From the NCBI RefSeq assembly GCF_001687105.1, contig NZ_CP014597.1, forward strand, positions 186,001-250,000: a DNA stretch of 64,000 nt, written 5' to 3'. Source of the DNA: Salipiger sp. CCB-MM3. Its GTDB lineage: Bacteria; Pseudomonadota; Alphaproteobacteria; Rhodobacterales; Rhodobacteraceae. The position numbers were made by a program, and so were the translations under genes. Shown in pieces: positions 23,741-54,820 of the stretch (positions are counted from its first letter, which is position 1; every line of letters starts with the position of its first letter). The notes under the pieces were generated by a model. It was given only the letters and a program-made list of their open reading frames with translations, did not search any database and was not told where the DNA came from.

Positions 23741-23772
23741 TTAGGCTGATGCCCTGACAACTTGGAGTTCGC

Positions 23773-23790
23773 ATAGCCCACTTGGGCGAT
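23773..23790. promoter_or_regulatory. 18-bp palindrome upstream of PLP enzyme 1 (putative LuxR-type box)
   Basis: ATAGCCCACTTGGGCGAT, with GC before and G after also shared with the site at 37831. A -10-like CATAG lies 24 bp downstream, and the gene start is 81 bp away. See 37831-37848. Confidence 0.5.
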
Positions 23791-23870
23791 GTCAGACCAT
23801 CGACTCCTTGCTCTCATAGCAATTGAGAAGCTCCACGAAAGCCGGGGCATTCACAGCTGCAGGGGGCAAA

Positions 23871-25172
23871 ATGGAACTCAACGTAGGATACGACCCTTCC
23901 TGGTCTGTCGCAGACCATCAGTCTTCAGTAGGCAAGAGCTTTTCATCGAGGTATGCCGCTCTCACACGGGACGTCTCGGATGCGAGTGCCGCTGGCCTTT
24001 GGCAATATTTCAGAACCCACGATTATCGCGTAGCTCCCAGATCGACCGTCCAGGATGAAAGCGGACGGTCCTTCGAGGCCATCAACCTCGGCTCGCAAGA
24101 CTATCTCGGGCTGGCCTCTCATCCTGATGTGCATCGTCGGGCCATCCAAGCGATCACTGATTACGGCGTCCACAGCTCTGGATCGGCGCCAATGGGCGGC
24201 GGCTCAAAGGCCGGGAAGGCCCTGGCGCAATCCCTATCGGACACGCTCGGCCTTCAACACACGCTTCTCTTCCCGACAGGCTGGGCTGCAGGCTACGGCG
24301 CAATCCGCGGCATCGTGCGCTCCCATGACTACATCGTCATGGACGCTCTCGCCCACAACTGCCTTCAGCACGGAGCGCAGGCATCCACGCAGAACGTCTC
24401 GGTCTTCATTCACAACTCACCTGAAAGCCTTGCCAAACGGCTCGAGCGCATTCGACGAAAAGCTCCTGATGCCGCCATACTGGTCGTGTTCGAGAGCCTA
24501 TACTCGATGGATTCAGACTGCCCGCCAATAGAGGAGCTGGTTCGCGTTTCTCGACAATACGACGCACACACAATGGTCGATATCGCGCACGACTTCGGCA
24601 TTTTGGGCAAGGATGGCCGGGGCCTTCTCGCGGACCAAGGCGGCTATGGTTCCGTCGACCTGATCATTGGCTCCTTCTCGAAGGTTTTCGGCGCCATTGG
24701 TGGATTCGTGGCTTCCGGCGACCTCAACCTGATTAGGGCCATCCAAGGTTTCAGCGGATCGTACACCTTCTCGAACTTCCTAACCCCTCCGCAGATTGCG
24801 GCCGCGCATGCTGCGCTTGAGATCGCTTTTTCTGAGGAAGGACGGAAACTGCGTAACGATGCATTGCGATCATGCAAATACCTCAGAGCCTTGCTCGATG
24901 CACAGGGCCTACAGACATTCGGGATCGACTCCGGCATGGTGATCGTGAAGGTCGGCCAGGAAGCCCGCGCGCGGGAGGCCTACAAACGCATCTTGGACGA
25001 TGGTGTGATTGTGAACTGCATCGAGTTCCCGGCTGTCCGGAGGGGAGAGGCAAGGTTTCGGATTCAGCTTACCCCAGAGCACACTGCAGATGACCTTCTC
25101 TACTCGGCCGGCGTGATTGCAGAGGCTCTGACATATGTTGGCCTTGTACAGGAGACCAAAAGGTCGGCCTAG
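23871..25172 (+). CDS. PLP-dependent alpha-oxoamine synthase-like enzyme 1
   Basis: 433 aa, fold-type I aminotransferase class I/II related to 8-amino-7-oxononanoate synthase, serine palmitoyltransferase and the CqsA autoinducer synthase. Such enzymes condense an amino acid with an acyl thioester. Visible: 'INLGSQDYLGLASHPDV', 'YGVHSSGSAPMGGGS', 'LFPTGWAAGYG', 'YSMDSDCPPI', 'VDIAHDFGILGKDGRG' (cofactor-binding Asp and His), and Lys in 'IIGSFSKVFGAIGGF' as Schiff-base residue. The motif is D-x-A-H-D rather than the usual D-x-A-H-[GS]. Start 23871 follows a GGGGG-rich site. Its paralogue is at 37907. Confidence 0.85.
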   Translation: MELNVGYDPSWSVADHQSSVGKSFSSRYAALTRDVSDASAAGLWQYFRTHDYRVAPRSTVQDESGRSFEAINLGSQDYLGLASHPDVHRRAIQAITDYGVHSSGSAPMGGGSKAGKALAQSLSDTLGLQHTLLFPTGWAAGYGAIRGIVRSHDYIVMDALAHNCLQHGAQASTQNVSVFIHNSPESLAKRLERIRRKAPDAAILVVFESLYSMDSDCPPIEELVRVSRQYDAHTMVDIAHDFGILGKDGRGLLADQGGYGSVDLIIGSFSKVFGAIGGFVASGDLNLIRAIQGFSGSYTFSNFLTPPQIAAAHAALEIAFSEEGRKLRNDALRSCKYLRALLDAQGLQTFGIDSGMVIVKVGQEARAREAYKRILDDGVIVNCIEFPAVRRGEARFRIQLTPEHTADDLLYSAGVIAEALTYVGLVQETKRSA

Positions 25173-25178
25173 CGGTTC

Positions 25179-25898
25179 CTATCGGCGCAGGCTCTGTGGG
25201 CTGAAGGTGACCTCGTAGTGGCCGTCGTCCACCGCGTAGCCATCTCCCTGACATCTTAAGAGCGTGCGCCGCACATTCTGAAAAGCAGTCTCAGCGGCTA
25301 AATCGTCACCGCCGGCCGCTGAGACCAGTAAGAGGTCTCGACCAACACGCCCTTGGGCCACGGTCACCCCCACAGTGACGCTGACACGCGCCGCTGCGCC
25401 TCCGACATCCACAACCCAACACTTTGAGGCTGCCTTGAGCAAGGCCTGGGCTTCTTCGCTCATTTGCGGCGTTGAGCACGTGTCGCCTTGCACGGCCAAG
25501 CTTTCACCGTTTGGGCCACTGGCATCGTGGATGACAACGTCCGCCACCAGGGGGTCCATCCAATCTTGACCGCGCCTGGTGCCGAAACGGATGTCTCGCG
25601 TCTCGCCAGGTTCGATGCCGCCTGGGATCGGAAGGCGATCCACTCCTTCTTTCGCCCAAGGCACCGCTCGGCCTTCGGTGCGGTAGGAGATCTCAGCGGC
25701 GAGGGCTGAGATGGCGACCTTGAGATGGTTTGTCACTGCCATAGAAAACTCAGCGCCGCGGCCGCCGTCGCTAGCTCTCACAGGTTCTGCGAAGATGATC
25801 GCCCCCTCCAGGCACGCTGAGACTTCGACGTCTGCTGACGAGGCTGTAGCCATGCTTGAAAGTACGAGGATGAAGGCAGAAAGGCACTGGATACGCAT
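25179..25898 (-). CDS. Periplasmic protein with TolA C-terminal-like domain
   Basis: 239 aa. Sec signal peptide (RIQCLSAFILVLSSMATASSA), then a ~120-residue unassigned domain ('AVTNHLKVAISALAAEISYRTEG'). The last ~80 residues match the TolA C-terminal/TonB-like fold of Rhodobacteraceae: 'LLKAASKCWVVDVGG', 'VTVGVTVAQGRV' and 'AFQNVRRTLLRCQGDGY'. It probably interacts with envelope proteins. Start 25898 marks the signal peptide; upstream codons are spurious. It converges with PLP enzyme 1, 6 bp apart. Confidence 0.75.
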   Translation of the reverse strand: MRIQCLSAFILVLSSMATASSADVEVSACLEGAIIFAEPVRASDGGRGAEFSMAVTNHLKVAISALAAEISYRTEGRAVPWAKEGVDRLPIPGGIEPGETRDIRFGTRRGQDWMDPLVADVVIHDASGPNGESLAVQGDTCSTPQMSEEAQALLKAASKCWVVDVGGAAARVSVTVGVTVAQGRVGRDLLLVSAAGGDDLAAETAFQNVRRTLLRCQGDGYAVDDGHYEVTFSPQSLRR

Positions 25899-25919
25899 GC
25901 CCCCATAGGCAGATTTTTC

Positions 25920-25956
25920 AGAGGTTTCGTCAAGCCAACTGATCAACGAAACCTCT
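25920..25956. repeat. 11-bp inverted repeat in the intergenic region 25899-26313
   Basis: AGAGGTTTCGT (25920-25930) and ACGAAACCTCT (25946-25956), perfect arms with a 15-nt centre, 22 bp upstream of the TolA-C-like gene. It could be an operator or mRNA structure. No gene is visible in the rest of this 415-bp stretch. Confidence 0.55.
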
Positions 25957-26313
25957 TGGGTGTCCCCAGACCGCTTGGCCTTGTCAAATCTTCCCTTATT
26001 CCAATCCACCGTCGTGCTGACGGATGCCCCTGATAGTCGGGTAGGGTTTCTTCGGAGTTCAAGAAGACTTCACTCTCGAGAAGCCGTGCCGCGGCGCCCA
26101 TTGGGTGTGGATATTTCGGCGCCGTCAAGCAAACTTGCTGCCTGACAGCGCCACTTGCGAAGAGCGTAGCCGTAGTGGACTTCCCTGCGCCTCCCTTTTT
26201 TCAATCCTCGCGCCAGATGGCGGATGCTCTGGATACCAGGAGGAGGTTCCACCGTGGTTTCGAATAGATGAGGCACTGGACACTTGCGCATTCCGTGAAG
26301 CCTCAGCACCTTC

Positions 26314-26901
26314 ATGGTCATGGATCACAAACTTTTGGGCATCGAACTCATATGCTTCGATCTTTTCGGCACCTTAGTCGAGATCAGGGAACCGCGCTGG
26401 CCGCATCTGAAGCTAGTGCGCGCTATGCAGGGCAAGGGCAAATGCCCGCATTACCGGATTCTGTTGACGCGCTCCATCCCTCTCGCGCACGTGCCCAGCA
26501 CCTTTGACGCCCCCGTGGCTTCGGAGGCCCTCTCAGCCGCGCAGGAGGACCTCTCGCATGAACTGGCATCGATCCGCCTGCGAGATGGTGTCAGCGCGAT
26601 GCTGGCCGGCCTTAGCGTTCCCTACGCCGTGTGCAGCAATCTAAGTGTCGATTACGCGCCCGCGCTGGAGATACACCCCGACCTCTCACCCGCTTTCTCG
26701 GTGCTGTCCTTTGAGGTCGGCTATGTGAAGCCGGATCCAGAAATCTACGAGATCACACTCGCCAAGGCATGCTTGAGGCCAGACCAGGTACTCTTCGTGG
26801 GCGATACGCCGGGTGCCGATATCGAAGGCCCACAAAAAGCTGGGATGAGGGCCATGCACATCGATGATTTCATGGGTGCCGTTGCGGAAGACGAGCCTTA
26901 G
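26314..26901 (+). CDS. HAD-superfamily hydrolase
   Basis: 195 aa. All four HAD motifs are visible: motif I 'CFDLFGTLVE' (nucleophile Asp), motif II 'VCSNLS', motif III Lys in 'GYVKPDPEIY', motif IV 'FVGDTPGADIEGPQKAG'. Probably a small-molecule phosphatase or dehalogenase-like enzyme; substrate unknown. The ATG two codons downstream (26320) is an alternative start. Confidence 0.85.
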   Translation: MVMDHKLLGIELICFDLFGTLVEIREPRWPHLKLVRAMQGKGKCPHYRILLTRSIPLAHVPSTFDAPVASEALSAAQEDLSHELASIRLRDGVSAMLAGLSVPYAVCSNLSVDYAPALEIHPDLSPAFSVLSFEVGYVKPDPEIYEITLAKACLRPDQVLFVGDTPGADIEGPQKAGMRAMHIDDFMGAVAEDEP

Positions 26902-27046
26902 ATCGTCATCAATAGTGCGATATATGCATCGCTTCCAGATCGAAAGAGATCCATTATCTTGGCATTTAATAGTCGAAAATCTAGGACTTAGGAACGTGTG
27001 GCAGCTCAAAGCCACGTGCAATAATTTCACTAGTAGAAGAACCCAG

Positions 27047-28420
27047 ATGAGCGAAAAATATGTGTCCGCAGTATCTTCCAGTTGGTGGGAGAACAAACTC
27101 CACAAATCTCCCATTAGCGTCTTCATCACTACCTCGATGTTAGCTGCCCTATTCGGCCTCGCGGTTTTGGTACTCCTCTTCTGGCTATTCCCACTTTTCG
27201 CATCATGGGGTTGGTACGACGGCACATCCGTTTCGGAAAGACTGGAGCGAATGACAGCGCTAGCCGGCGCGACACTGGGGATCTCTGTTTCCTTAGCTGG
27301 TGCGCTGACCGCTGTCGTTCTGGCCCGCAGAGCAGTCACGCATTCTGATGACACAAAAGAAGTTGCCGCCCGCCAATTGCGGGTAGACGAAACAGCGTTA
27401 TTCCGCGATTTCGTGCTAGAAAGCGGCGTCATTGAAAACGCGATTGACGACAGCAGGAGGGCTCTGAAGCAAATTGAACTGATATACGATGCGGCCATTA
27501 ACCTTCAGAAGGTCGATCTTGAGTATGAAATAAGGATGAATAAGGCGATTGCAGATGCTCACTGGGACATTGAATTTGGCGACACCTCAAAACGTGACAG
27601 CGTGGATGAAAACTCAATCAAAGAACCCCTCGAGAAAGAGCGTCAGAGTATAATTGACTCGGAGCAAGAGAAGATTGAATCTGCGATCATTGACCTGACA
27701 TACGTTATCAAGAATCTTCAGTATGGGCGCACGGAGATTTGCTCTATATTCAGCCCAGACGATATCAAAGATATTGGCACCGTCTATGTCAACTCTCCCT
27801 TCGTCGAGTGGGATATCGATATTCCGCAATACTCACTTGAGGACTTGGATCCGGACGAAAGCAAAGAGCATTGGGTTCGTGTTGAAGCTTTGTTGGATCT
27901 ACTCACAACAAAGATGTGGTTTGTCTCGACAGTTCCATTCGCATCCGAGGGAGACGGGCCAGCTTGGAGCGATGTTGCCAAGCTTCACGCGGCTTACCAG
28001 GCCTACCACAGGCCACCTCATGAATACTTCCCAGGACGGAACGCCCTCCCCTTGGGTCACATCCAGCTCGACAACAACAAATGGCTTCGAGCAGACTTTG
28101 GCGGGGCTCTGATGACGGCCGTACTCCGAGCTACGGCACCGAATATTATTCGAGACTACGTTCTTAAGACTGCCGATGAAATTGAAGGCACAAAGCCATA
28201 CCGCAGAATTATCGAAGAGGCGCTAAATGCAAAAATCGCCACACTGCAAAAGGAATTTCCTAAAGCCAGCATCTTGTACGAGCGAGTTGAGGCAACCAAA
28301 GCCACCCCAACCTTTATCTACCGCGAAGCGCACGATTACATGAAGGATAATAGGTTTGTACAAGTGCCTGAAATTGTCGTGCCGCTATCAGACTACCTAG
28401 ACGACCCTGAAATATATTAA
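27047..28420 (+). CDS. Two-TM membrane-anchored protein of unknown function
   Basis: 457 aa from ATG 27047 (the frame is open 61 codons further upstream without coding character). Two TM helices: 'VFITTSMLAALFGLAVLVLLFWLF' style at ~28-55 and 'LAGATLGISVSLAGALTAVVLA' at ~77-98. A long cytoplasmic part follows with a charged coiled-coil-like stretch (~105-240) and a mixed C-terminal domain. Base composition is more A/T-rich than its neighbours, suggesting transfer. It abuts a remnant CRISPR-Cas operon, so a defence role is possible but unproven. Confidence 0.6.
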   Translation: MSEKYVSAVSSSWWENKLHKSPISVFITTSMLAALFGLAVLVLLFWLFPLFASWGWYDGTSVSERLERMTALAGATLGISVSLAGALTAVVLARRAVTHSDDTKEVAARQLRVDETALFRDFVLESGVIENAIDDSRRALKQIELIYDAAINLQKVDLEYEIRMNKAIADAHWDIEFGDTSKRDSVDENSIKEPLEKERQSIIDSEQEKIESAIIDLTYVIKNLQYGRTEICSIFSPDDIKDIGTVYVNSPFVEWDIDIPQYSLEDLDPDESKEHWVRVEALLDLLTTKMWFVSTVPFASEGDGPAWSDVAKLHAAYQAYHRPPHEYFPGRNALPLGHIQLDNNKWLRADFGGALMTAVLRATAPNIIRDYVLKTADEIEGTKPYRRIIEEALNAKIATLQKEFPKASILYERVEATKATPTFIYREAHDYMKDNRFVQVPEIVVPLSDYLDDPEIY

Positions 28421-28427
28421 AATTATT

Positions 28428-28463
28428 GCCCGGGCTCACCTCTGAAAAATTAAGAGCCCGGGC
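28428..28463. terminator. Bidirectional terminator between the two-TM gene and cas7
   Basis: GCCCGGGCTC (28428-28437) pairs perfectly with GAGCCCGGGC (28454-28463). It is T-rich on the minus-strand exit side (AATAATTTT). It ends both converging genes. Confidence 0.75.
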
Positions 28464-28507
28464 GAAAAAGTCTGAAATCAATGACCTAAAAGGGTCGCGG
28501 TCGGCCG

Positions 28508-29425
28508 TCAGAAGGGTTCGAAAACCTCGATGCCCTTGGGGAGATCGTCCAGGTCGACATCGATATCGTAGTCTTTGAAGGCACGCGCCGGGGGCTGATT
28601 GTCCAGGCGCGGATCACCCACCTCGATAAGGTCCTCGCCGCTGCGGCGTTGAGTGGTCACGCGATCGAACAGCTTGTGAGCCTGAGCGTTGCCCAGCGCG
28701 CTTTGGTGCTTGAAGACGATCAGACGGCGCGCGGCCATCTCTCCGCGGGTGGCAGCGCGGTCGAAGTCGAACATGTCCCGAATTGCGACCCAAAGAAGCT
28801 GCAGGTCATCATCGTCAAAGCCGGACTTCTTGGCGCAGTTGGCATTGATGTAGCCGTGCACGCGATAGAGGCCGTATGGGATGATGAACTTGGAGCCCAT
28901 CGTTCGTTGCTTTTCGCGGTCTTTTTCGTTGGTGACCGTCCCGCGAGTGATCCCGATGTTGATCGGCATGACGGGCTCGACCGACCGGGCGAAGTTGATC
29001 TGCACAGGCCCACGAACCGAACCGGCGTTGACCTCATTGGTCATTACGGCACCGAAGGCCCGAATGTCGAAGAAGGTGTCACACATCCAACGGGTGATCG
29101 CGGCCGCCTTGTCTGCTTTTTCAGGAAGCTTGGCGGGCTTGGGTTTCTCACCCAGCGCTTCGTAGGCGCGAGCATGCGCTTCGTTCAAGACGGTGCCCTG
29201 TGACTGGTAGATGCTGAACCCGTCGTCTTCACCACAGTTCTCGCCCACGAAGTTGCGGATCTTGCGCTTTAGGGCGACGTCGGAAACGAGGCCGTGCATC
29301 GTCTCGGGGTCTTGCCGTGGCATGGCGCCGGCATCCGGGTCTCCATTGGGGTTGCCGTCCTTCACATCGAAGTAGAGGACGAACTCATAGCGGTTCTGGA
29401 TCGGATCGATTTCCGGCTTGCTCAT
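28508..29425 (-). CDS. cas7: Type I-C CRISPR-associated protein Cas7/Csd2
   Basis: 305 aa. 'NRYEFVLYFDVKDGNPNGDPDAGAMPRQDPETMHGLVSDVALKRKIRNFV' contains the Csd2 N-terminal signature (NGDPD, then G-x-V-[ST]-D-V-x-[LI]-K-R-[KR]-[IV]-R). Later come 'FDIRAFGAVMT', 'VRGPVQI' and 'YGLYRVHGYINANCA'. It forms the crRNA-binding backbone of Cascade. Its ATG shares the A of the cas8c stop (TGATG). No cas4, cas1, cas2 or repeat array follows; a terminator and a foreign gene do. Confidence 0.93.
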   Translation of the reverse strand: MSKPEIDPIQNRYEFVLYFDVKDGNPNGDPDAGAMPRQDPETMHGLVSDVALKRKIRNFVGENCGEDDGFSIYQSQGTVLNEAHARAYEALGEKPKPAKLPEKADKAAAITRWMCDTFFDIRAFGAVMTNEVNAGSVRGPVQINFARSVEPVMPINIGITRGTVTNEKDREKQRTMGSKFIIPYGLYRVHGYINANCAKKSGFDDDDLQLLWVAIRDMFDFDRAATRGEMAARRLIVFKHQSALGNAQAHKLFDRVTTQRRSGEDLIEVGDPRLDNQPPARAFKDYDIDVDLDDLPKGIEVFEPF

Positions 29426-31254
29426 CAGGCGGTCTCCTTTTCCTGTTCTGATTGGTTTTCGGCGGCTTCTGCAGCGATTGCTTCAGCCTTGCGCTTGGCT
29501 TCCTGGCGCGCCCATTTGTCGGCTTTCTGATGGTAGTAGCCGGTCGTAAAGCGCCCCTGCCCTTCCAAGCCCAGAATGCGTGGCATGGTCATTCCAAGAC
29601 CGCCCTTCACCTCCGCGACCTGCTTGTCGAACCAGTGGGCGAGGTGCCCGGACCCATTGCGTCTGATGAGCTTCAGATGGTGACTGATGTTGCGCTCCAG
29701 CATTGGAAAGATCCGAGCCGGAGTCGCCGAGGCCGCGCCGAAGTACCGATCCCGAATAGTCGAGTTGAGGCCGGGCAGAGCCTTGCTCTGGATGTCTTCC
29801 AGCAGGGCGAAGAGACGGCCCAGAAGGTAGGCCTCGTCAGTTACTGTCGTGTCTAGGCTCACGGGTAGTTTCTCCTTGTAGGTGGTTTGGTTGACGACGG
29901 CACGGCAGATGGCTGCGCGGCGGGCGTTCACCTCCTTGTCTTTGCGAATGCGCTCGAGGATCTTGCTCATCAGAGAGACGGGAAGGTTTCGTCCAGTCAG
30001 GACAGATTTCAGGATTTCCCCCGACAGCATTGGATCGGCGTCGCTGAGGCTGCGGGTCCCATTCTTGCCGGCTGGGACGGTCTCCAGAACGATCGACCAA
30101 ACTGCCGGGACACCCTTCCACCCCTCAGGGGCAATGGTCATCTCATCCCAAAATTTCAGAGTGTTCTCGGAAAACTCTGAAACGGTTCCCGGTTTCCAGA
30201 ACCTGACCACGATGCGACTTGCGTTTGGCGCGAGGCCGAGCAGAAATACTTCGGTTTCAGGGTCTAGCCGCGAGAAATCAGAAGGTTTGCCTTGGGACAG
30301 CTTTCGCATGGTGTCCCGGACCTTGGATGCCTCATCGGCGTCTGTTGGCGGGTCCATGACCGCGCTCATGATCCAGTCGCATTCGTCGGATGCGTCACCT
30401 TCGGCCGCCTTCGCCCAAAAGGCGACGGTGGTGTCTCCCAAAAGCGCATTCCTGCGGTTTTCACCGCGCTCAGCGAGCAACGTATTCAGAGCAGTTACGT
30501 ACCCGAAGGCGGCCCGTTCAGAAACGGGGGCGTTCGCTCCGTTCTTCTTGTCATGGGAACAGAACGAGGGCTTGTTGAACGAGACCATGTAGGCGCCGGA
30601 TGCTTGAGAACCTCGGACGCCTTTGATCTGCATATGGTTCTGCGCCAAGGGTCCTTCCTCACCGGTCACAAGGCACTTCACAAGTTCACCCTCACCCGGC
30701 TTTTGCGCCTCTGCGACAATGGACGGGTGCTGATGCAGGACAACTTTCTCGCTTCCCTCGCCGATCTCGATCTGAAGGGTCTGCAAGAGCGCCTGCGCAC
30801 TGAACTCGCGTTCGACGAACATCTCAGGCGTCCAACTTTCGAAGAAGCGCAGGACCGCTTGCAGATGCGGATCATTGGTGCCGGCAAAGAGCTCCCGGTG
30901 CCGTTCGATGAATGCGGTGTGTTTCTCGGCCGCCCGCGGAGACAGGTTTGCTTCAAACGACTTCCTTCCGCCGACTTTCACCTCTTTTGCATCGACACCG
31001 AGGACATAGGCGCAGGTGTCGGCTCCGAGCCGGGGCAGTACACCTGAGGTCCTCTGCGCGCGGGGCACAGGTTTCCGCACCGGTTGAGGGGCGTCATTCT
31101 TCAGGCTTCGAAGGTCCGTGAGACGCAGGAAGTTCCCTTCCATGTCGATCTCCAGGGCGAAGCCGACGTATTCCATCGAGAACCCGAAGTCAGGGGCCTC
31201 ACCATCTGCGCGCAGGCGCCCGTAGAGGTCATTGAGAGCTCTCAGCATCGTCAT
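29425..31254 (-). CDS. cas8c: Type I-C CRISPR-associated protein Cas8c/Csd1
   Basis: 609 aa, normal full length. Csd1 hallmarks: 'MLRALNDLYGRL' N-terminus, 'ADTCAYVLGVD', 'CLVTGEEGPLAQNHMQIKGVRGSQASGAYMVSFN' region, 'LLGDTTVAFWA' and 'YLLGRLFALLEDIQ', plus 'YYHQKADKWARQEAKRKAEA' at the C-terminus. It is the large subunit for PAM recognition. Its ATG overlaps the cas5 stop by 4 nt. Two inverted TTCAGAGT elements (30155-30162 and 30174-30181) lie in it. Confidence 0.93.
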   Translation of the reverse strand: MTMLRALNDLYGRLRADGEAPDFGFSMEYVGFALEIDMEGNFLRLTDLRSLKNDAPQPVRKPVPRAQRTSGVLPRLGADTCAYVLGVDAKEVKVGGRKSFEANLSPRAAEKHTAFIERHRELFAGTNDPHLQAVLRFFESWTPEMFVEREFSAQALLQTLQIEIGEGSEKVVLHQHPSIVAEAQKPGEGELVKCLVTGEEGPLAQNHMQIKGVRGSQASGAYMVSFNKPSFCSHDKKNGANAPVSERAAFGYVTALNTLLAERGENRRNALLGDTTVAFWAKAAEGDASDECDWIMSAVMDPPTDADEASKVRDTMRKLSQGKPSDFSRLDPETEVFLLGLAPNASRIVVRFWKPGTVSEFSENTLKFWDEMTIAPEGWKGVPAVWSIVLETVPAGKNGTRSLSDADPMLSGEILKSVLTGRNLPVSLMSKILERIRKDKEVNARRAAICRAVVNQTTYKEKLPVSLDTTVTDEAYLLGRLFALLEDIQSKALPGLNSTIRDRYFGAASATPARIFPMLERNISHHLKLIRRNGSGHLAHWFDKQVAEVKGGLGMTMPRILGLEGQGRFTTGYYHQKADKWARQEAKRKAEAIAAEAAENQSEQEKETA

Positions 31255-31655
31255 GACAGCAAGCCTTCCTGGCGGGCGCCAGCGACGTCGATGACTCCGT
31301 CAGACATGAGAGCCTCATAGAAGATCGGCGTGACGCCTGCTTCGTAGTCGATATCGTAAAGCATGAGACCGAGCTCTCTTTCGCCTTCGAGAGCAGACCC
31401 CGGGATGTCGTCATCGATCAGCTCGAAGTCCGCGGCGAACTCCCGCAGACCCAGGAACGGACGCTGGAAACAGGCTCCCCGACGAGCTCGCCGGCGGAAC
31501 ATGCTCAGATGCTTTCCGACCGTATCCTTTTCTGATTTCCCGGTAAGCTCTATGTGGGCCTCGATGACATAGTCCACGTCTTTCAAAGCCTGCATGGCCC
31601 GCTGCTGGCGATGCTTGCGGTTCGAGACATCGTATTGAGTGAGAGATGGATCAGA
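31251..31655 (-). pseudogene. cas5c: Type I-C cas5 (Cas5d), 5' end removed by an insertion sequence
   Basis: The open frame continues upstream of the first ATG to the IS border at 31655 ('YDVSNRKHRQQRAMQALKDVDYVIEAHIELTG...'), so ~134 C-terminal residues remain of a ~220-aa protein. Diagnostic: 'DVDYVIEAH', 'KHLSMFRRRARRGACFQRPFLGLREFAADF' and 'LGLMLYDIDYE'. Cas5d normally processes pre-crRNA in type I-C, so its truncation together with the missing cas3 suggests the operon cannot interfere. 4-nt overlap with cas8c. Confidence 0.88.
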
Positions 31656-31727
31656 TGTCCGTCATCACATAATTTGGGACCCGGAATGCTCAGCCGGTCA
31701 GGAGGGTCTGGCTCATACTGTTCGAGG

Positions 31728-32708
31728 TTAGGCCGCCTGAGTTCGGTTGAGCAAGCGGCGCTGGCGGATGGTGTCGGACTTGATCCTCCTTCGTTCGGCT
31801 AAGATGGCTTTGGCGCGACCGAAGTAGACGTCGGCCGGGGTGACGTTTCCGAGGCTCTCATGGACGCGTTGATGGTTGTAGTGGTCGACGAAGGTCTCGA
31901 TCGCGGCCTCGAGTGCGCCGGGGAGGTAGTGGTTCTCCAGCAGGATGCGGTTCTTCAGGGTCTGGTGCCAGCGTTCGATCTTGCCCTGCGTCTGCGGATG
32001 GTTGGGGGCCCCGCGCACATGCTCCATCTGCTTGTCCTTCAGCCAGATTGCGAGATCGCCTGCGATGTAGGACGAGCCGTTGTCGCTGAGAAGTCGTGGT
32101 CGGTGTAGCACGGTCGGCTGGTCGCAACCGGACGCCTCCAGCGCGAGCTGGAGTGTGTCAGTGACATCTTCGGCTCGCATGGTCGTGCAGAGCTTCCAGG
32201 CGATTACATATCGGCTGAAGTCATCCAGGATGGTGCTCAGATAGTACCAACCCCAACCGATCACCTTCAGGTACGTGAAGTCGGTCTGCCAGAGCTGGTT
32301 TGGCCGGCTCGTCTTATCGCGGAACTCGTCCGCAGCCTTGACAACGATGAAGGCAGGGCTCGGGATCAGGTCGTGCGCCTTGAGGATGCGATACACCGAA
32401 GCCTCTGAGACAAAGTACTTCTTCGTATCTGTGAAGCGCACCGCAAGCTCCCGTGGAGAGAGTTCGGGCTCCTCCAGCGCCAAGCCGACCACATCCTGCC
32501 GGACATCATCAGGGATGCGGTTCCAGACCCGACCCGGGTGGGGTCGGCGATCCTCGAGACCGGCCTCGCCAAGGGATCGGTATCGGTCGTACCAACGATA
32601 GAAGGTTGTCTTCGGAATACCGAACATCTCCAGCGTGCGCGCCGCGGGCAGATGTGATCTCTCGACGAGCCGGATAATCTCGAGCTTTTCGGATGCAGGG
32701 TACCTCAT
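31728..32708 (-). CDS. IS3-family transposase OrfB (second IS type)
   Basis: 326 aa. HTH N-terminus ('MRYPASEKLEIIRLVERSHLPAARTLEMFGIPKTTFYRWYDRY' region), then the rve catalytic core with 'WQTDFTYLKV', 'LLSDNGSSY' and 'QTQGKIERWHQTLK' (D, D, E). Intact. Its ATG overlaps the orfA stop by 4 nt, so coupling here is by restart rather than by frameshift. Confidence 0.9.
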   Translation of the reverse strand: MRYPASEKLEIIRLVERSHLPAARTLEMFGIPKTTFYRWYDRYRSLGEAGLEDRRPHPGRVWNRIPDDVRQDVVGLALEEPELSPRELAVRFTDTKKYFVSEASVYRILKAHDLIPSPAFIVVKAADEFRDKTSRPNQLWQTDFTYLKVIGWGWYYLSTILDDFSRYVIAWKLCTTMRAEDVTDTLQLALEASGCDQPTVLHRPRLLSDNGSSYIAGDLAIWLKDKQMEHVRGAPNHPQTQGKIERWHQTLKNRILLENHYLPGALEAAIETFVDHYNHQRVHESLGNVTPADVYFGRAKAILAERRRIKSDTIRQRRLLNRTQAA

Positions 32709-33085
32709 TCGTGGTCTCCCCCATCCCCGATCATACTTTTTTTGAGCAGCCGATTCTCAAGGGTGGCCTCTGCCAAGGCCTCCTTCAGCGCGCTGGCCTC
32801 AGCCCGCAGGACCTTCACTTCCGGGCTGCTCGCCTGGCGCGCTGTGTCACCAGCAAGCCGCTTCTTGCCGGCCTCGAGAAACTCTTTGGACCAACTGTAG
32901 TACAGGCTCGTCGCAATCCCCTCGCGCCGGCAAAGCTCGGCTATGCTCTCCTCGCCGCGAAGGCCCTCAAGCACGATGCGGATCTTTTCCTCCGCCGAAT
33001 GCTGTTTGCGGGTGCGTCGGCGGATGTCCTTCACAACCTTCTCGGCGGAAGGCTTAGGTGTTCCGGGTTTATGTCTCATCTCCAC
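32705..33085 (-). CDS. IS3-family transposase OrfA (second IS type)
   Basis: 126 aa. Helix-turn-helix 'KIRIVLEGLRGEESIAELCRREGIATSLYYSWSKEFLEAGKKRL', then a leucine-zipper helix 'VLRAEASALKEALAEATLENRLLKKS'. Intact. Confidence 0.9.
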   Translation of the reverse strand: MEMRHKPGTPKPSAEKVVKDIRRRTRKQHSAEEKIRIVLEGLRGEESIAELCRREGIATSLYYSWSKEFLEAGKKRLAGDTARQASSPEVKVLRAEASALKEALAEATLENRLLKKSMIGDGGDHE

Positions 33086-33132
33086 TCCTTGGTGGTTACG
33101 ATGAGCCAGAAACCCTCCTTTCCGAAATCAAT

Positions 33133-34058
33133 TCAGATGTCCCATAGGCGCTGACGCCGGACACTCATGATCTCCGCTAGGACGTTCGCAAGAGCACGGA
33201 CGTGACCATCTCTCACGCACCGCGCGCGGAGTCTGGCCTCACGCTTGTTTTGGGCCTCCTTGGCCGAGACATCCCAGAATCCATTTGCGCTTGGCGCGAC
33301 CAACATGTCGAATTTGGCGTGCTCCCCGATATAGGCTCTCACCAGAAGCTCCTGTGCATTGGGGTGCGGCCGCCGGCAGGCGTATCCGCGAGCTTTCAGA
33401 ACGCTCATCCATTCCCGCGTCTCGAGCTCGGCCTGCCCGAAGATCCTGATTGCCTCATCTCGCCGCCGCTCCCGATCTTTCCGATCCCATGGCGACAATT
33501 CAAAGTCGGACGGGATCGGCCTCACGCACTCGATCCTGAAAACGCGATCATCTCGTGTCGTCCAGGGATGGAAGTCACCTCCGACACGTGCCCTCGTCAG
33601 GAGGTAGTTGCGCTTCAACTTCGCCAATCGCACTTGATCCGCGACGTCGTGAAATTGCAGCTCCAGTTGCCCTTTCCGCCCGCCCAGGACCCTTTCATCA
33701 TGCTCAGCCGCGATCATCTGGGCCAAGTGGTCGAGTTGCTCTTCAAGCTCGTCGGCATCACTTGGCTGCCTCCGAAGAACGATTTCACCGCGGGCCTCGA
33801 TATGCTTCCGGTCTTTGGCCTGGCTCGATGTCTCGATAAGGCGCACTTGGGAGACCTCAGTGGGGTTGAGGTCGAGCACCTTAGGCATCCCATGGCGGTT
33901 CCGGTGTGAGGATGCTACGAGGAACGCCATGCCAGCTGTGAGGGTGACCTGTCCGCGAGCGGCAGAAATCTTTCCGCCCGCATCATCGCTAACAGGGTGC
34001 GCGAATTGCACTTCGATGTGATCGCCGTGCGCGATGTCAGAAAATTACAATTATTCAT
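33133..34058 (-). pseudogene. Unknown ~300-aa gene, frameshifted at the start and cut at the 3' end by the IS
   Basis: ATG 34058 has GAGG upstream and reads 'MNNCNF'. A one-base loss in a T4 run near 34041-34044 (plus-strand AAAA) then moves the coding sequence to the frame '...SDIAHGDHIEVQFAHPVSDDAGG...' open to 33133. Codon use (GAC, CTC, GAG, ATC rich) supports coding on this strand. The last native residues are '...VLAEIM'; 'SVRRQRLWDI' comes from the IS end. Middle: 'GGDFHPWTTRDDRVFRIECVRP'. No family recognised. Confidence 0.55.
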
Positions 34059-34349
34059 GTTGCCTCACCATCAGCGCACATGGCGACATGCGCACTACCT
34101 ACTTTCGATAGTATTCTTATTTATTTTTGGGGGGGTGAGGAAAGCCTCAGACTACAAGTGAGCGATTTTTTATGGAAAAGCTTGCATGCGTTCATATTTT
34201 CGCCTTTTATGGCCCTACTCGAGGAATCGAGTACTATCGTATGAGGGTTGAGTTAGTGGCTGAAATTTTCAGAGTTTTTCGGTTATCGTAAATTCAGAGT
34301 TTTCTCGTCTATTCCTCTACGCACGCAATCCCAAAAATATCGAGGGACT

Positions 34350-35228
34350 ATGAAGTACTTTATCCTAAGCGCGTCCGCACTGAGCCTCCTTGCTGCATGT
34401 GGTGGAGGCGGCAGTGACAGCGCTGCCTTCTCCGATCGGCCGGAATTTGCATCCTTCGCCGAAGCGCAGACCGAAGGCGGCGATTACCGCGCAGACGGCA
34501 CTGTCACCTCCGCACGCTACGAGGTCTCCTCCGATGGCACTGTGACCATCACCGATGGCCCCGACACTGAACGTGACGCGGTCGCCGGCCTCAGCTTCGA
34601 AGACGAGGTCATCACCGCGCTGAAAGTGCGCGACTCCAACGCGGATATCACGCTCGCGGAAGAGAACGGCGACTACATGATGGTGACCGACGGGTACATC
34701 ATCGCTGCGACCGAAGATGGCGGCGACGTCGCGATCGTCGGCGACACGGATCAGCTGGGCTACAACTACCAGTCCTATGGCATCTGGCAGACCGGCCTCA
34801 ACGGCACCTCCGGGCGCGCCGCGGCAGGCAGCTTCGGCGCAGAAACGGCGAGCAGCGAAATGCCCGATGCCGGCACCGCCAGCTACTATGGCGAAAGTGT
34901 CGGTCAGGTCGTGACCGACGGCGTCGACTATGCCACGCAGTCTGATGTCTATGTCGAAACTGACTTCGAGGACGTCTACGTTTCGAGCGCCGGGACCTAC
35001 GCCTACGACCCGATCGAAGACGAGTATGTCGAAGGTCGCTCCGATCTGGATTTCGAAGCGATCGGAAGCCTCGACGGGTCCGGCTTCAATGCTGAGATCG
35101 CGGACGCCGACATGGCAGGCGATGTCGCTGGCCAGTTCTATGGCCCGGGCGCAGAAGAAGTGGGTGGCACCTTCTCGGCAGTCACCGATGACAGCGCATA
35201 CCTCGGCTCGTTCGGCGCTTCGCAGTAA
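34350..35228 (+). CDS. TbpB-like surface lipoprotein, probable Slam/T11SS cargo
   Basis: 292 aa lipoprotein: signal 'MKYFILSASALSLLAACGGGG' with lipobox L-A-A-C. The acidic, beta-rich body ends in 'GQFYGPGAEEVGGTFSAV', the GxFYGPxAxExGGxF signature of transferrin-binding-protein-like beta-barrel domains. Such proteins are flipped to the cell surface by Slam. The Slam-like gene starts 2 bp after its stop. Promoter region 34059-34349 is A/T-rich and holds CGATAGTA/TACTATCG inverted repeats ~130 bp apart. Confidence 0.8.
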   Translation: MKYFILSASALSLLAACGGGGSDSAAFSDRPEFASFAEAQTEGGDYRADGTVTSARYEVSSDGTVTITDGPDTERDAVAGLSFEDEVITALKVRDSNADITLAEENGDYMMVTDGYIIAATEDGGDVAIVGDTDQLGYNYQSYGIWQTGLNGTSGRAAAGSFGAETASSEMPDAGTASYYGESVGQVVTDGVDYATQSDVYVETDFEDVYVSSAGTYAYDPIEDEYVEGRSDLDFEAIGSLDGSGFNAEIADADMAGDVAGQFYGPGAEEVGGTFSAVTDDSAYLGSFGASQ

Positions 35229-35230
35229 TC

Positions 35231-36472
35231 GTGAAGCTTAAGAGCACTCTCGCAGCGGCTGCCCTGGCGGCCGCTGCACTTTCTTCGGGAGCCGACGCGC
35301 AACAACAGCAGCCGGCGCCCGTTCGCATGGAAGTTGCTTTCAAGGTGGCTCTGAATTCGATCGCCACCGGTCACCCCGAGCAGGCCGTCAGGATTCTGCG
35401 AAAGATGCTTGCGGTCGATCCGGGTCTCGTCCGGGTTCGCCTTGAGCTCGCGCGCGCTCTCTACGAAGCGGGCGAGTACACGCAAGCCCAAGAACAATTC
35501 AGGATCGTCCTCTCCAGCGGTGAGCTTCCCGCTCCTGTACGTGCCAACGTCCTTCGGTTCCTGCGTGCGATTGATGAGGAGCGCGGTCTACGCACAAGTT
35601 TCTCAATCGGCCTCGAGGCGCCGCAGGGCGCTGGACGCAGCTACGATACTGATGACATCGACGTCGACTTTGGCGCTGGACCGCTGAAGTTCAAGATGGA
35701 CCGAGAAGACCCGCCACTTACGGGCCTAGCTCTCGCCGGTTCCTTTCGGAAGCAGTGGCCCCTCAAGACCTTCGAGAGCGGTGTGAACCTCACCGGATAC
35801 GTGCGCGGAAGCGCCGAGCTCTACGAGACAACCGGAACCGTATACGACAAGGAAACCGCTGAGGTTGCCACCGGCCTGCAGTTTACCTGGCCGCGAACCA
35901 CGACCTTTGTCGAAGCCACCGCGGGCACCACTTACCGCGACAAAGAGATGTCTGAGGAATACATTGGCGTGGGCTCCGGGCTCTCGTGGCGGACCCAAGC
36001 CGGTCTCACCACCGCCATCGAAGTTGATTTTCAGGATGTTTCCCTTGGTCGATATCCTGACGTCGACGCTCAGCGCACCAATGCGTCGGTCACCGTCGTG
36101 AAACCGCTACGCGGCCGTGACCAGGTTGCGGTGAAGCTCTCTTATCAGAGGCAGAACGCTGACCGCGCCGACCTTGCCTACGACTATGCCGAGCTTCGCG
36201 TAGGGCGCCGAACCGAGATCGGAGGTGGCTTTCTTCTCGAACCATCGGTGTTCGCTGAAGGCTTTTGGCAAGAGGAGGCTACACCCGGCCTGGCGGAGCC
36301 GCGCACCGAGCACGAGTTCGGCGTCGATCTCAGGCTAGACAAGACGGATACCTTCATCTTTGGGCGGTTCACCCCATACGTTGAAGTCGGACTCTCCAAG
36401 CGCACGAGTTCGATCGAAGCATACAGCTATCGGGACACCCACATCAGTGCCGGCCTGACGAGCGCGTTCTAA
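35231..36472 (+). CDS. Slam-like (DUF560) outer-membrane protein, type XI secretion
   Basis: 413 aa, GTG start 2 bp after the lipoprotein stop. Signal peptide ending 'GADA', then a TPR-like N-terminal domain ('AFKVALNSIATGHPEQAVRILRKMLAVDPGLVRVRLELARALYEAGEYTQAQEQFR' pattern, residues 35-115). A ~280-residue beta-barrel of alternating strands follows, ending 'ISAGLTSAF' with terminal Phe. This domain order and size fit Slam/T11SS proteins, which deliver TbpB-like lipoproteins to the cell surface. Confidence 0.8.
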   Translation: MKLKSTLAAAALAAAALSSGADAQQQQPAPVRMEVAFKVALNSIATGHPEQAVRILRKMLAVDPGLVRVRLELARALYEAGEYTQAQEQFRIVLSSGELPAPVRANVLRFLRAIDEERGLRTSFSIGLEAPQGAGRSYDTDDIDVDFGAGPLKFKMDREDPPLTGLALAGSFRKQWPLKTFESGVNLTGYVRGSAELYETTGTVYDKETAEVATGLQFTWPRTTTFVEATAGTTYRDKEMSEEYIGVGSGLSWRTQAGLTTAIEVDFQDVSLGRYPDVDAQRTNASVTVVKPLRGRDQVAVKLSYQRQNADRADLAYDYAELRVGRRTEIGGGFLLEPSVFAEGFWQEEATPGLAEPRTEHEFGVDLRLDKTDTFIFGRFTPYVEVGLSKRTSSIEAYSYRDTHISAGLTSAF

Positions 36473-36703
36473 GTTACCGGCCGACAAACTCGAAACCAAG
36501 GTGATCGTGGCCCTCCTCAAAGGGCTGCGATCAACCATTGCCAAATGGGGAAGCGAACTCCTGATTTGTCGGGTTGATTTTGACCACGCCAAATAGGGTG
36601 AAATTGTGTCCATCCTGATGTAGTATCCAGATCGGCCCTTCGCATATTCCGCGATCCACGGGCTACCATTTTGGATCCACACGCATTTTGAAACGATGGC
36701 CCC

Positions 36704-37834
36704 GTGATACAGAGCGATGATTTTTCGAGACTCACCACGACATTATTTTCAGCGGCGATGGGGGCATCTGGTTGGGATGCCTTCCTTGACGAGCTAACCC
36801 GGCAATCAGGCGGCGTGTGCACCCATATGTTCGGCTTCGACACTGAGGCTCAGATCAGCATGGGACTGACTGCGAGCGGATATGACCCCTCGTACATCGA
36901 GACCTACAACGCCCACTATGCCGAGAGAAATGCCTGGGCCCCGGGCTTCGCCGAGCATGATGCCGGCGTCTTCGTTGACTGCGAGCAGATGTGCCCCTCA
37001 ACCGAGCTGGCTCAGACCGAATTCTACAATGATTGGCTTCGACCTCAGGAAGAGATCAGCACCGGTGGAGGCGTACTTCTCTTCAAAGGTGACACACGGG
37101 TCTTCCTTCTTGGGGGAAATATCCGCGCCAAGGACGAGGATAAGCTAAAAGGCGGATGGACTGAGCTTGTACGACTGATGACCCCGCACATGCAGCAGGC
37201 GTTTGAAGTCAGCCGCGCGCTGGCCGGCGCCAAGCTTGAGACGATGATGGCCACCAGCCAGCGCCTCGGAGAGGTCCCTGGCATTGTCGTCCTGACCGAT
37301 ATTGGCCGTATTGTGTATGCCAACGGCATAGCCAGTGAGATGATCGACCGCGGGAGCCCGATTGGAGTGGACCTGATGGGACGCCTGCGGCTTGATGGAG
37401 GACGCCTGCCGATCCACCGCCTCCGAGATCATCTGCAGATCAGCGCGAAGACCGTGACGTTCACCCTTCATGGAGAAGACGATAGCAAGGACTATGAAAT
37501 ACGCCTCGTCCGCCTATCGCCTGACGCCTGCCCGTCCCTGTCGTTTATTCGGGCCCTTGGCGTATCCAGAGAGTGCTCCGTGCTGCTGATTACGGGCAGA
37601 GATCATGCACCCGATCTTGCATTCATCCTGAAAACTCGCTTCCAACTCACCGATGCCGAAGCTCATGTTGCCCTTCTTCTGGCCGAAGGCATGTCAACGC
37701 GCGAGATTTCCGAACAGCGCGAGGTCAGCATCCACACAGTTCGCCACCAGGTGAAAACGATCCTCCAGAAGGTCGGTGTCCGCCGGCAGACGGAGCTGGT
37801 TAGAACTCTGAGCGTAATTTCTGCAAGCGCATAG
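36704..37834 (+). CDS. LuxR-type transcriptional regulator (no AHL-binding domain recognised)
   Basis: 376 aa, GTG start. The C-terminal ~65 residues are a LuxR/GerE helix-turn-helix ('LTDAEAHVALLLAEGMSTREISEQREVSIHTVRHQVKTILQKVGVRRQTELVRTL' pattern). The N-terminal part is a long sensory region without the conserved AHL-binding Trp/Tyr set; residues ~195-235 ('VPGIVVLTDIGRIVYANGIASEMI') look PAS-like. It ends inside the palindrome that precedes PLP enzyme 2, and probably regulates that gene and enzyme 1. Confidence 0.82.
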   Translation: MIQSDDFSRLTTTLFSAAMGASGWDAFLDELTRQSGGVCTHMFGFDTEAQISMGLTASGYDPSYIETYNAHYAERNAWAPGFAEHDAGVFVDCEQMCPSTELAQTEFYNDWLRPQEEISTGGGVLLFKGDTRVFLLGGNIRAKDEDKLKGGWTELVRLMTPHMQQAFEVSRALAGAKLETMMATSQRLGEVPGIVVLTDIGRIVYANGIASEMIDRGSPIGVDLMGRLRLDGGRLPIHRLRDHLQISAKTVTFTLHGEDDSKDYEIRLVRLSPDACPSLSFIRALGVSRECSVLLITGRDHAPDLAFILKTRFQLTDAEAHVALLLAEGMSTREISEQREVSIHTVRHQVKTILQKVGVRRQTELVRTLSVISASA

Positions 37835-37848
37835 CCCAGCTGGGCGAT
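37831..37848. promoter_or_regulatory. 18-bp palindrome upstream of PLP enzyme 2 (putative LuxR-type box)
   Basis: ATAGCCCAGCTGGGCGAT, nearly perfect dyad symmetry, 16 of 18 positions identical to 23773-23790. A -10-like CAATAG lies 24 bp downstream and the ATG 59 bp away. The stop codon of the LuxR-type gene is inside the site. Confidence 0.55.
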
Positions 37849-37906
37849 GAGTCCCCCGCGAGCTTGAGCTGCAATAGGTCTCATATCCCAGTGAGGAGTG
37901 CTCGGA

Positions 37907-39199
37907 ATGAATGACCCAGTGCTGTTTGGCTCCGTGCCGGATTTTCTCGATTACACCGCGGCAGATGCTGCGATTAGGTTCGGACAACTCACTGCGTGGC
38001 TGGACGCGAGGCATGCTCAGGGGCTAGATCCGTATTCTCGCTCGACCTCCAGCCGCGTTGGGCCGCAGATCACTGCACATGGTCGTCTTGGAAGAACCTA
38101 TGAGGGGGTGAACTTCGCGTCTCAGGACTATCTCAACCTGTCGACACACCCCGCAGTAATGGAGGCAGCCAAGCAGGCGATCGACGCCTATGGCGTACAC
38201 AGTGCAGGCTCCTCAGCGTTAATGGGAAATACTCATGCCTCCCTTGAGCTCGAAAGGAAGCTTGCGGATTTCACTGGCTTCGCGGATTGCACGCTCTTTC
38301 CGACGGGTTGGGCCGCAGGCTACGGCATCATCAGGACCCTTGTCACTCCACAGGATCACGTAGTCATCGATGTCCTGGCACACGCTTGCCTCCATGAAGG
38401 GGCGAGAGCTGCAACCTCCATTGTCCACACCTTCCCCCACCTCTCAAACGAGGGTGTTGAACGGCGGCTCCGCAAAATCAGAGAGAGCGATGACAGCTGT
38501 TCCATAACGGTTGTGACCGAGACCGCCTACAGCATGGACTCTGACGTGCCGGACCTCCGCGGGCTTCAGACAATCTGCCGTCAGTATGGTGCCACCCTGG
38601 TCGTCGACTGCGCTCATGACCTTGGGGCCATCGGCGAGCATGGCGGGGGCTACCTGGAATTGCTGGGCATGACCGGCGGCGTCGACATCCTGATGGGATC
38701 GTTCTCAAAGACCTTCGCGTCCAACGGTGGCTTCGTGGCGACCAACCAGGCCGAGCTCAAGCTCGCCATCCGCTACACCTGTGGCCCGCACACGTTTTCC
38801 AACGCCATGTCCCCGGTCAATGCGAAGATCGTCTCTCGGTGCCTCGACATCATTCAGTCGGATGAGGGCTTTGCGCTTCGGCAAGACCTCCTGCGAAACA
38901 TCCGCTTAATGCGCACTCTTCTTTCGAACAGAGGCTTCACGGTTCTTGGCCGGGACAGCGCGATCGTGCCGGTTATCCTCGGCGACAGTGCGACCTCGCG
39001 CCTGATCACCAGAAGCACACTCGAGGCCGGGGGCATCGTGAACCTCGTGGAGTTCCCCGCAGTCGCCCGTAATTCCTGTCGTTGGCGTCTTCAGATGATG
39101 GCGCGCCACACGGACGTACAAATCCGGCACCTCGTTGACCTGGCCTGCGATGCAAGAGCAGGTCTCGCGCAGAACCCGAAATATCGAGCGGCTCTGTGA
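37907..39199 (+). CDS. PLP-dependent alpha-oxoamine synthase-like enzyme 2
   Basis: 430 aa, paralogue of the 23871 enzyme: 'VNFASQDYLNLSTHP', 'YGVHSAGSSALMGNT', 'LFPTGWAAGYGIIR', 'YSMDSDVPDL', 'VVDCAHDLGAIGEHGGG' and Schiff-base Lys in 'LMGSFSKTFASNGGF'. Again D-x-A-H-D. Start 37907 with GAGGAG 8 nt upstream; a GTG at 37898 is an alternative. No acyl-carrier or ketoreductase gene is adjacent, so product (biotin-type, sphingoid-like or a CqsA-type signal) is open. Confidence 0.85.
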   Translation: MNDPVLFGSVPDFLDYTAADAAIRFGQLTAWLDARHAQGLDPYSRSTSSRVGPQITAHGRLGRTYEGVNFASQDYLNLSTHPAVMEAAKQAIDAYGVHSAGSSALMGNTHASLELERKLADFTGFADCTLFPTGWAAGYGIIRTLVTPQDHVVIDVLAHACLHEGARAATSIVHTFPHLSNEGVERRLRKIRESDDSCSITVVTETAYSMDSDVPDLRGLQTICRQYGATLVVDCAHDLGAIGEHGGGYLELLGMTGGVDILMGSFSKTFASNGGFVATNQAELKLAIRYTCGPHTFSNAMSPVNAKIVSRCLDIIQSDEGFALRQDLLRNIRLMRTLLSNRGFTVLGRDSAIVPVILGDSATSRLITRSTLEAGGIVNLVEFPAVARNSCRWRLQMMARHTDVQIRHLVDLACDARAGLAQNPKYRAAL

Positions 39200-43402: not shown

Positions 43403-43681
43403 ATGGCTGGAAAGCGTGAGAAGCCTGAAGACATTGTCACCAAGCTGCGCCAGGTCGAGGTGTTGCACGGCCAGGGCCTGTCGATGGCCGATGCGGTGCG
43501 ACAGATAGGGATATCGCAGCACACGTTCTACCGGTGGCGTAAGCAGTATGGCGGTATGAACCGGGCACAGTTGTCGCGGCTGAAGGACCTCGAGAAGGAG
43601 AACCTGAGGCTGCGGCGGGCGGTATCTGACCTGACGCTCGAGAAGTTGATCCTGGCTGAGGCTGCCCAGGGAAACTTCTAA
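43403..43681 (+). CDS. IS3-family transposase OrfA (copy 2)
   Basis: 92 aa, two residues different from copies 1 and 3 near the C-terminus (RLKDLEKE and LILAEAA). Same HTH and zipper. Confidence 0.9.
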   Translation: MAGKREKPEDIVTKLRQVEVLHGQGLSMADAVRQIGISQHTFYRWRKQYGGMNRAQLSRLKDLEKENLRLRRAVSDLTLEKLILAEAAQGNF

Positions 43682-43704
43682 GCCCTTCGCGCCGCCGCGA
43701 GTGC

Positions 43705-54518: not shown

Positions 54519-54797
54519 ATGGCTGGAAAGCGTGAGAAGCCGGAAGACATTGTCACCAAGCTGCGTCAGGTCGAGGTGTTGCATGGCCAGGGCCTGTCGA
54601 TGGCCGATGCGGTGCGGCAGATCGGGATATCGCAGCATACCTTTTACCGGTGGCGGAAGCAGTATGGTGGGATGAACCGGGCACAGTTGTCGCGGCTGAA
54701 GGAACTCGAGAAGGAGAACCTGAGGCTGCGGCGGGCGGTATCTGACCTGACGCTCGAGAAGCTGATCCTGACCGAGGCTGCCCAGGGAAACTTCTAA
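54519..54797 (+). CDS. IS3-family transposase OrfA (copy 3)
   Basis: 92 aa, translation identical to copy 1. Confidence 0.92.
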   Translation: MAGKREKPEDIVTKLRQVEVLHGQGLSMADAVRQIGISQHTFYRWRKQYGGMNRAQLSRLKELEKENLRLRRAVSDLTLEKLILTEAAQGNF

Positions 54798-54820
54798 GCC
54801 CTTCGCGCCGCCGCGAATGC

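Follow-up and report, generated by a model that had tools for sequence, protein, structure and literature searches.

A candidate LuxR-type regulon of two alpha-oxoamine-synthase-like genes and an RTX-repeat gene on a plasmid of Salipiger sp. CCB-MM3

Alpha-oxoamine synthase (AONS)-family enzymes are accompanied by a regulatory partner in the alpha-hydroxyketone quorum-sensing systems CqsA/CqsS and LqsA/LqsS (PMC3376566). In the VqmA-DPO system, the operator of VqmA is GG-N6-CC (PMC8284805). Here we describe a 64,000-nt stretch of Salipiger sp. CCB-MM3 (the window), corresponding to bases 186001-250000 of C3, a plasmid replicon of 315,806 bp in a genome of 5.52 Mb and 7 contigs. It carries two AONS-like genes, AONS1 and AONS2, under a common palindrome, together with the gene of a LuxR-type regulator, LuxR1. 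On balance we lean towards a small LuxR-type regulon on this one 316-kb plasmid, in which LuxR1 reads the dyad for AONS1, AONS2 and a gene encoding RTX repeats.

The likeness to CqsA/CqsS and LqsA/LqsS lies in the combination of an AONS-family enzyme with a regulatory partner. However, the partner here is LuxR-type and cytoplasmic, neither AONS gene has a recognised histidine kinase gene as its neighbour, and both enzymes stay far below the cut-off for CqsA. LuxR1 differs from VqmA by an extra acyl-homoserine lactone (AHL)-receptor-like domain in front and by a different operator. Unlike the AHL-type LuxR proteins LasR, TraR and YenR, it has no Pfam Autoind_bind match and contains an inserted PAS-like domain. 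AONS1 and AONS2 share the fold family and the pyridoxal phosphate (PLP) lysine motif GSFSK with BioF, KBL and serine palmitoyltransferase (SPT), KBL and SPT being the best solved matches, but they lie far below the NCBIfam cut-offs and have DxAHD where KBL has DDSHA. No description of such a three-unit LuxR-type plasmid regulon was found in the literature searched.

A palindrome in register with three plasmid promoters

The 18-mer ATAGCCCACTTGGGCGAT is located at 23773-23790 upstream of AONS1, whose ATG (23871) begins 81 nt further, and ATAGCCCAGCTGGGCGAT at 37831-37848 upstream of AONS2, whose ATG (37907) begins 59 nt further. The LuxR1 stop codon TAG (37832-37834) falls within the second 18-mer. 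These coordinates bear out an earlier note on this DNA, which had described two 18-bp palindromes each preceding an AONS-like gene and followed by a -10-like element, with a LuxR-type gene ending inside the second. The note had presented the palindrome as shared by two loci; both are present, but they are not the only ones. A third site, P3, was identified at C3:41713-41730 (-), 168 kb from the AONS1 site (P1). It lies directly past the end of a 180-aa open reading frame (ORF) and upstream of a gene encoding a protein with RTX calcium-binding repeats (the RTX-repeat gene). P1, P3 and the AONS2 site (P2) have the same orientation.

Table 1. Features in the window (positions numbered from its first base).
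Feature	Position	Strand	Description
Operator P1 (putative)	23772-23791	+	CATAGCCCACTTGGGCGATG, 20-bp form, before AONS1
-10-like element of P1	23814-23819	+	TCATAG, in register with P2 and P3
AONS1	23871-25172	+	PLP-dependent, alpha-oxoamine-synthase-like, 433 aa; DIAHDFG, GSFSK
LuxR1	36704-37834	+	376 aa; predicted AHL-receptor-like domain, long helix and PAS-like domain, with GerE helix-turn-helix; favoured reader of the dyad
Operator P2 (putative)	37830-37849	+	CATAGCCCAGCTGGGCGATG, 20-bp form, before AONS2; overlaps the LuxR1 stop codon
-10-like element of P2	37872-37877	+	CAATAG, in register with P1 and P3
AONS2	37907-39199	+	alpha-oxoamine-synthase-like, 430 aa; DCAHDLG, GSFSK
LuxR2	47808-48956	-	382 aa; GerE helix-turn-helix, weak PAS; rival reader; closest to the LuxR genes linked to AONS in L087 and L038

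In the 5.52-Mb genome the strict motif TAGCCCANNTGGGCGATG has three copies, all of them on C3 and each before a gene. A repeat scattered genome-wide was ruled out. The dyad is better written as CATNNCCCANNTGGGNNATG, with 20 bp and 14 fixed positions; P3 in this form has two mismatches, in the outer arm. Upon searching the genome with up to three mismatches, we found five places with at most one mismatch, namely P1-P3 and two on the largest contig, which sit within two Proton_antipo_M (NuoN/NuoM-type) genes. The 12-bp core GCCCANNTGGGC is present at 12 genome places, and the outer bases are mostly kept only in P1-P3 and the two NuoN/NuoM-type genes. Our family sample comprises 394 genomes (the own genome and 393 others). 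The strict motif was found in five of these 393, one copy each; four copies are inside ORFs with an AHMGY motif like NuoM/N, and the fifth (L026) is inside a 345-aa mechanical ORF.

A chance origin of the dyads was ruled out by shuffles, Markov-3 controls and a matrix scan. The four matches in the window (two sites on both strands) were reached by 0 of 100 dinucleotide shuffles, and the pattern was absent from 40 Markov-3 sequences of C3 size. When a matrix of the three sites was scanned over C3, the sites scored 26.8-27.7 bits and the next place 16.3 bits, own reverse reads aside.

CATAG (23815-23819) at P1 and AATAG (37873-37877) at P2 both occupy nt 25-29 past the 18-mer, and CATTG stands in the same register at P3. 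In an ungapped alignment on the dyad, 9 of 32 downstream columns are identical in P1-P3, the null mean being 2.2 (P=0.0002, 20,000 random triples from C3). The identical columns include A, T and G at nt 26, 27 and 29, the expected place of the -10 element. Upstream of the dyad, 4 of 32 columns are common to the three sites. As the remaining flanks differ, P1-P3 are not copies of one repeat. The dyad centre is about 32 bp before the -10-like element, roughly at -44, and such spacing is usual for LuxR-type activators. TGGGC fits TRGGY, which we take to be the half-site of GerE proteins. By inspection, a purine-rich stretch precedes the ATG of both AONS1 and AONS2. As expected of a LuxR-controlled regulon, the three units share a putative operator in fixed register to their promoters.

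The AONS enzymes and their relatives in other genomes

Aminotran_1_2 (PF00155) scored above its cut-off in both enzymes, and GSFSK and D-x-A-H-D were present, which places them in the alpha-oxoamine synthase superfamily. Both were below every NCBIfam cut-off. AONS1 and AONS2 scored 143.1 and 201.7 bits, respectively, for CqsA (NF005526, cut-off 428 bits); 243.1 and 267.3 bits for BioF (TIGR00858, cut-off 426.45 bits); 178.9 and 206.9 bits for KBL glycine C-acetyltransferase (TIGR01822, cut-off 493 bits); and 233.4 bits each for SPT (NF047599, cut-off 500 bits). The best solved match by sequence was KBL for AONS2 (189.9 bits, with CqsA at 147.2) and SPT for AONS1 (167.7 bits, with CqsA at 98.8). 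The earlier note had likened the genes to CqsA as well as to AONS; that the enzymes are CqsA is not supported, as 143 and 202 bits are well short of 428 and solved KBL and SPT match better, and both enzymes are outside the named AONS subfamilies. Their D-x-A-H-D motif, which had been called unusual, is present in both but is ordinary here, being found in 119 of the 120 best AONS2 homologues; the pattern is absent in L091 and L092 (2 of 20 relatives in the rebuilt tree set).

In the AONS tree, which contained no CqsA, BioF or SPT reference sequences, AONS1 grouped with G324_A1, the second AONS of genome G324, and AONS2 with the enzyme of L038, an Amylibacter metagenome-assembled genome (MAG), each with a support of 1.000. 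AONS1 and AONS2 are 41% identical and fall in separate branches, so they are old paralogues. The AONS and LuxR trees were built without rows L034 and L035 (wrong ORFs) and L101-L104 and L109 (wrong reading frame), and two more loci have no row.

Among the family genomes, 7 of 394 had an AONS2 relative (E<=1e-65), as did 8 of 398 from the phylum and 1 of 20 from the genus, the own genome counted in each; in the family surveys of LuxR1 and AONS2, only the top few candidates per genome were scored. The distribution is sporadic, and in this genome the gene is plasmid-borne. Among 7,997 proteins scored, 5,136 reached E<=1e-60 to AONS2. A LuxR-type gene is close by in 4 of the 25 AONS loci (24 sources, because L044 and L089 are one contig), namely L038, L039, L040 and L087, which represent three lineages as L039 and L040 are close relatives. 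L087, the cluster of G324 from another genus, has LuxR-type, AONS2-like (56%), nitroreductase and AONS1-like (57%) genes in line over about 5 kb, flanked on both sides by transposase-type genes, and a different dyad, CGTCGGGCAACCGACG, past its LuxR stop. Equal lengths in the search results suggest more contigs carrying LuxR and AONS genes: the pairs P0265/P0017 (17433, jgi), P0247/P0074 (3502, ena) and P0127 LuxR/P0005 AONS (3029, lgn) agree in longest contig and source.

Other neighbours of AONS relatives are diverse. In L052, L090 and L095, the AONS relative adjoins histidine-kinase and response-regulator genes, with a GGDEF-EAL output in L090 and L095, an arrangement in alphaproteobacteria that resembles CqsA/CqsS. 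In L038 (7423-7980, -), a gene for an N-acyl amino acid synthase of FeeM type is convergent with the AONS2 orthologue of the Amylibacter MAG, and a YcaO gene in L044 (4601-7287, +) is immediately upstream of the AONS relative. In L098 (371-2197, +), an AONS enzyme is fused to a cyclic-nucleotide-binding domain, and the next ORF (1937 aa) contains an AONS-like stretch.

No histidine kinase was found among the genes scanned next to AONS1 and AONS2, and the L090 kinase had no tblastn match on C3, the replicon searched. The nitroreductase, FeeM and histidine-kinase partners likewise gave no tblastn match on C3 at 1e-3. A FeeM partner in this genome was rejected, as its three weak matches looked like other GNAT-type proteins by inspection. 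A LuxI search gave 0 matches, but 14 control genomes also gave none; with no positive control, it does not bear out the AHL-free circuit that the earlier note had raised as possible.

LuxR1 and other explanations of the palindrome

LuxR1 has a GerE helix-turn-helix (34.0 bits against a Pfam cut-off of 23.5) and no Pfam match to Autoind_bind (PF03472). Its model predicts an AHL-receptor-like domain, a long helix, a VqmA-like PAS domain and the GerE helix-turn-helix. LuxR1 relatives (E<=1e-40) were identified in 10 of the 393 other family genomes, and all 10 neighbourhoods were scanned, two of them clipped by contig ends. Four contained CATNNCCCANNTGGGNNATG with at most two mismatches, downstream of the LuxR gene: L119 (0 mismatches, position 9040, 259 bp downstream), L114 (0, 7766, 304 bp), L113 (2, 8751, 181 bp) and L116 (2, 8086, 703 bp). 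The other six had no such dyad. In 60 Markov-3 replicates of these loci we found 32 sites, all with two mismatches and none within 750 bp downstream. A site in L111 (3 mismatches, 266 bp downstream) was left out of the count, since sites with three mismatches do not rise above background (6.2 per set). Another 26 loci (372,282 bases) gave five dyad sites, two of them in NuoN/NuoM-type genes and the rest at AONS loci, of which L038 has two and L088 one. One L038 site (1 mismatch) lies upstream of the LuxR gene that neighbours the AONS2 relative, with 95 bp between the site and the mechanical start of that gene.

This survey, in which 4 of the 10 genomes have the dyad downstream of the LuxR1-family gene, and the position of P2 favour LuxR1, which is most likely the reader of the dyad. 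The dyads near its family would be a footprint of LuxR1 reading, not proof of binding. A search around the dyads of the LuxR1 relatives for small ORFs and Rfam RNAs gave nothing convincing; by analogy with VqmA and VqmR, a gene for a small RNA or a peptide could conceivably lie there.

We propose that a LuxR1 dimer binds the 20-bp dyad, centred about 32 bp before the -10 element, and would from there activate, rather than repress, three separate units, AONS1, AONS2 and the RTX-repeat gene. The enzymes would probably condense an acyl thioester and an amino acid into an alpha-aminoketone or a derived product. The earlier idea of one LuxR-type regulon over both condensing enzymes is supported by the three in-register plasmid promoters, by the presence of the dyad near members of the LuxR1 family in other genera, and by the LuxR-AONS2-nitroreductase-AONS1 cluster. 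Several results weigh against our proposal. In L119 and L114 the genes on either side of the dyad offer no evident target and it must serve something else there, and the 18-mer dyad (at most two mismatches) was found before none of the AONS genes elsewhere in 19 loci scanned. The LuxR genes beside AONS genes elsewhere fall in other branches than LuxR1. In the 394-genome sample, with the top few candidates per genome scored, the 10 genomes holding LuxR1 relatives are all different from the 6 other genomes holding AONS2 relatives, and the two are therefore not obligate partners. Finally, in the LuxR tree the LuxR2 branch is nested in the LuxR1 family in its wider sense, where the inner supports are weak. 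This lowers the odds for LuxR1, since the footprint draws no clean line between the two regulators.

LuxR2, alone or together with LuxR1, might thus read the dyad, with LuxR1 standing beside P2 for historical reasons. In the G324 cluster the LuxR protein shares 35.5% identity with LuxR2 (E 7e-65) and 25% with LuxR1 (E 2e-9), the Amylibacter LuxR is likewise closer to LuxR2, the branch of LuxR2, L087 and L038 has a support of 1.000, and the one-mismatch dyad lies before the L038 LuxR gene. We consider LuxR2 a real rival but rather unlikely as the reader. P2 reaches into the LuxR1 gene itself, no dyad with two mismatches or fewer is present in L087, and the dyad was looked for, and found, beside genes of the LuxR1 family, the one family surveyed. 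That the palindrome is a terminator or plasmid-maintenance site and not an operator seems highly improbable. P2 includes the LuxR1 stop codon, P3 borders on the end of the 180-aa ORF, P1 is 32 bp past an 85-aa ORF, and the palindrome RNA could form a 4-bp stem (-7.3 kcal/mol); but no T run follows the palindrome, the register to the -10-like element is kept in P1-P3, and the dyad is also present beside LuxR genes in other genera.

What LuxR1 would sense is a separate question. An AONS product is plausible as a signal read by a LuxR protein, and feedback of the product on the receptor-like domain may be envisaged. A specific form of this idea is that an alpha-aminoketone, or a pyrazine from its dimerisation, is read directly by a cytoplasmic LuxR1-type receptor (AHL-receptor-like plus VqmA-like PAS) with no membrane histidine kinase, giving a positive loop on both synthases across the plasmid; we hold it to be possible but doubtful. 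The chances are about even that the LuxR-type regulator instead governs a function in biosynthesis or lipid modification, with a product that is not its ligand, and that LuxR1 senses a foreign signal, redox or a host compound, without a loop. The missing co-occurrence of LuxR1 relatives with AONS genes, the unlike genes beside AONS relatives elsewhere (YcaO, FeeM, nitroreductase, histidine kinases) and the RTX-repeat gene among the targets are in line with this, whereas the receptor-like domain predicted in LuxR1 and the LuxR-type genes near AONS in 4 of 25 loci and three lineages speak against it.

The promoters tie an uncharacterised AONS group concretely to LuxR-type regulators, with three promoters, one operator and two candidate readers. 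If the product were the ligand, it would be a new signal class for LuxR receptors and would join the fields of alpha-hydroxyketone and pyrazine signalling. Even if it were not, the dyad would be a candidate operator for an alphaproteobacterial LuxR subfamily for which no assigned function was met in the literature searched.

Other genes of the window

Between the two AONS loci, 28508-31254 (-) carries Cas7-type and Csd1 CRISPR genes, type I-C-like. Directly upstream of LuxR1, 34350-36472 (+) holds genes for a surface lipoprotein like TbpB and for a Slam-type (SlipAM) protein. Two similar transposase ORF pairs with integrase core domains, apparently copies of one insertion sequence, were found at 43403-44529 and 54519-55648 (+).
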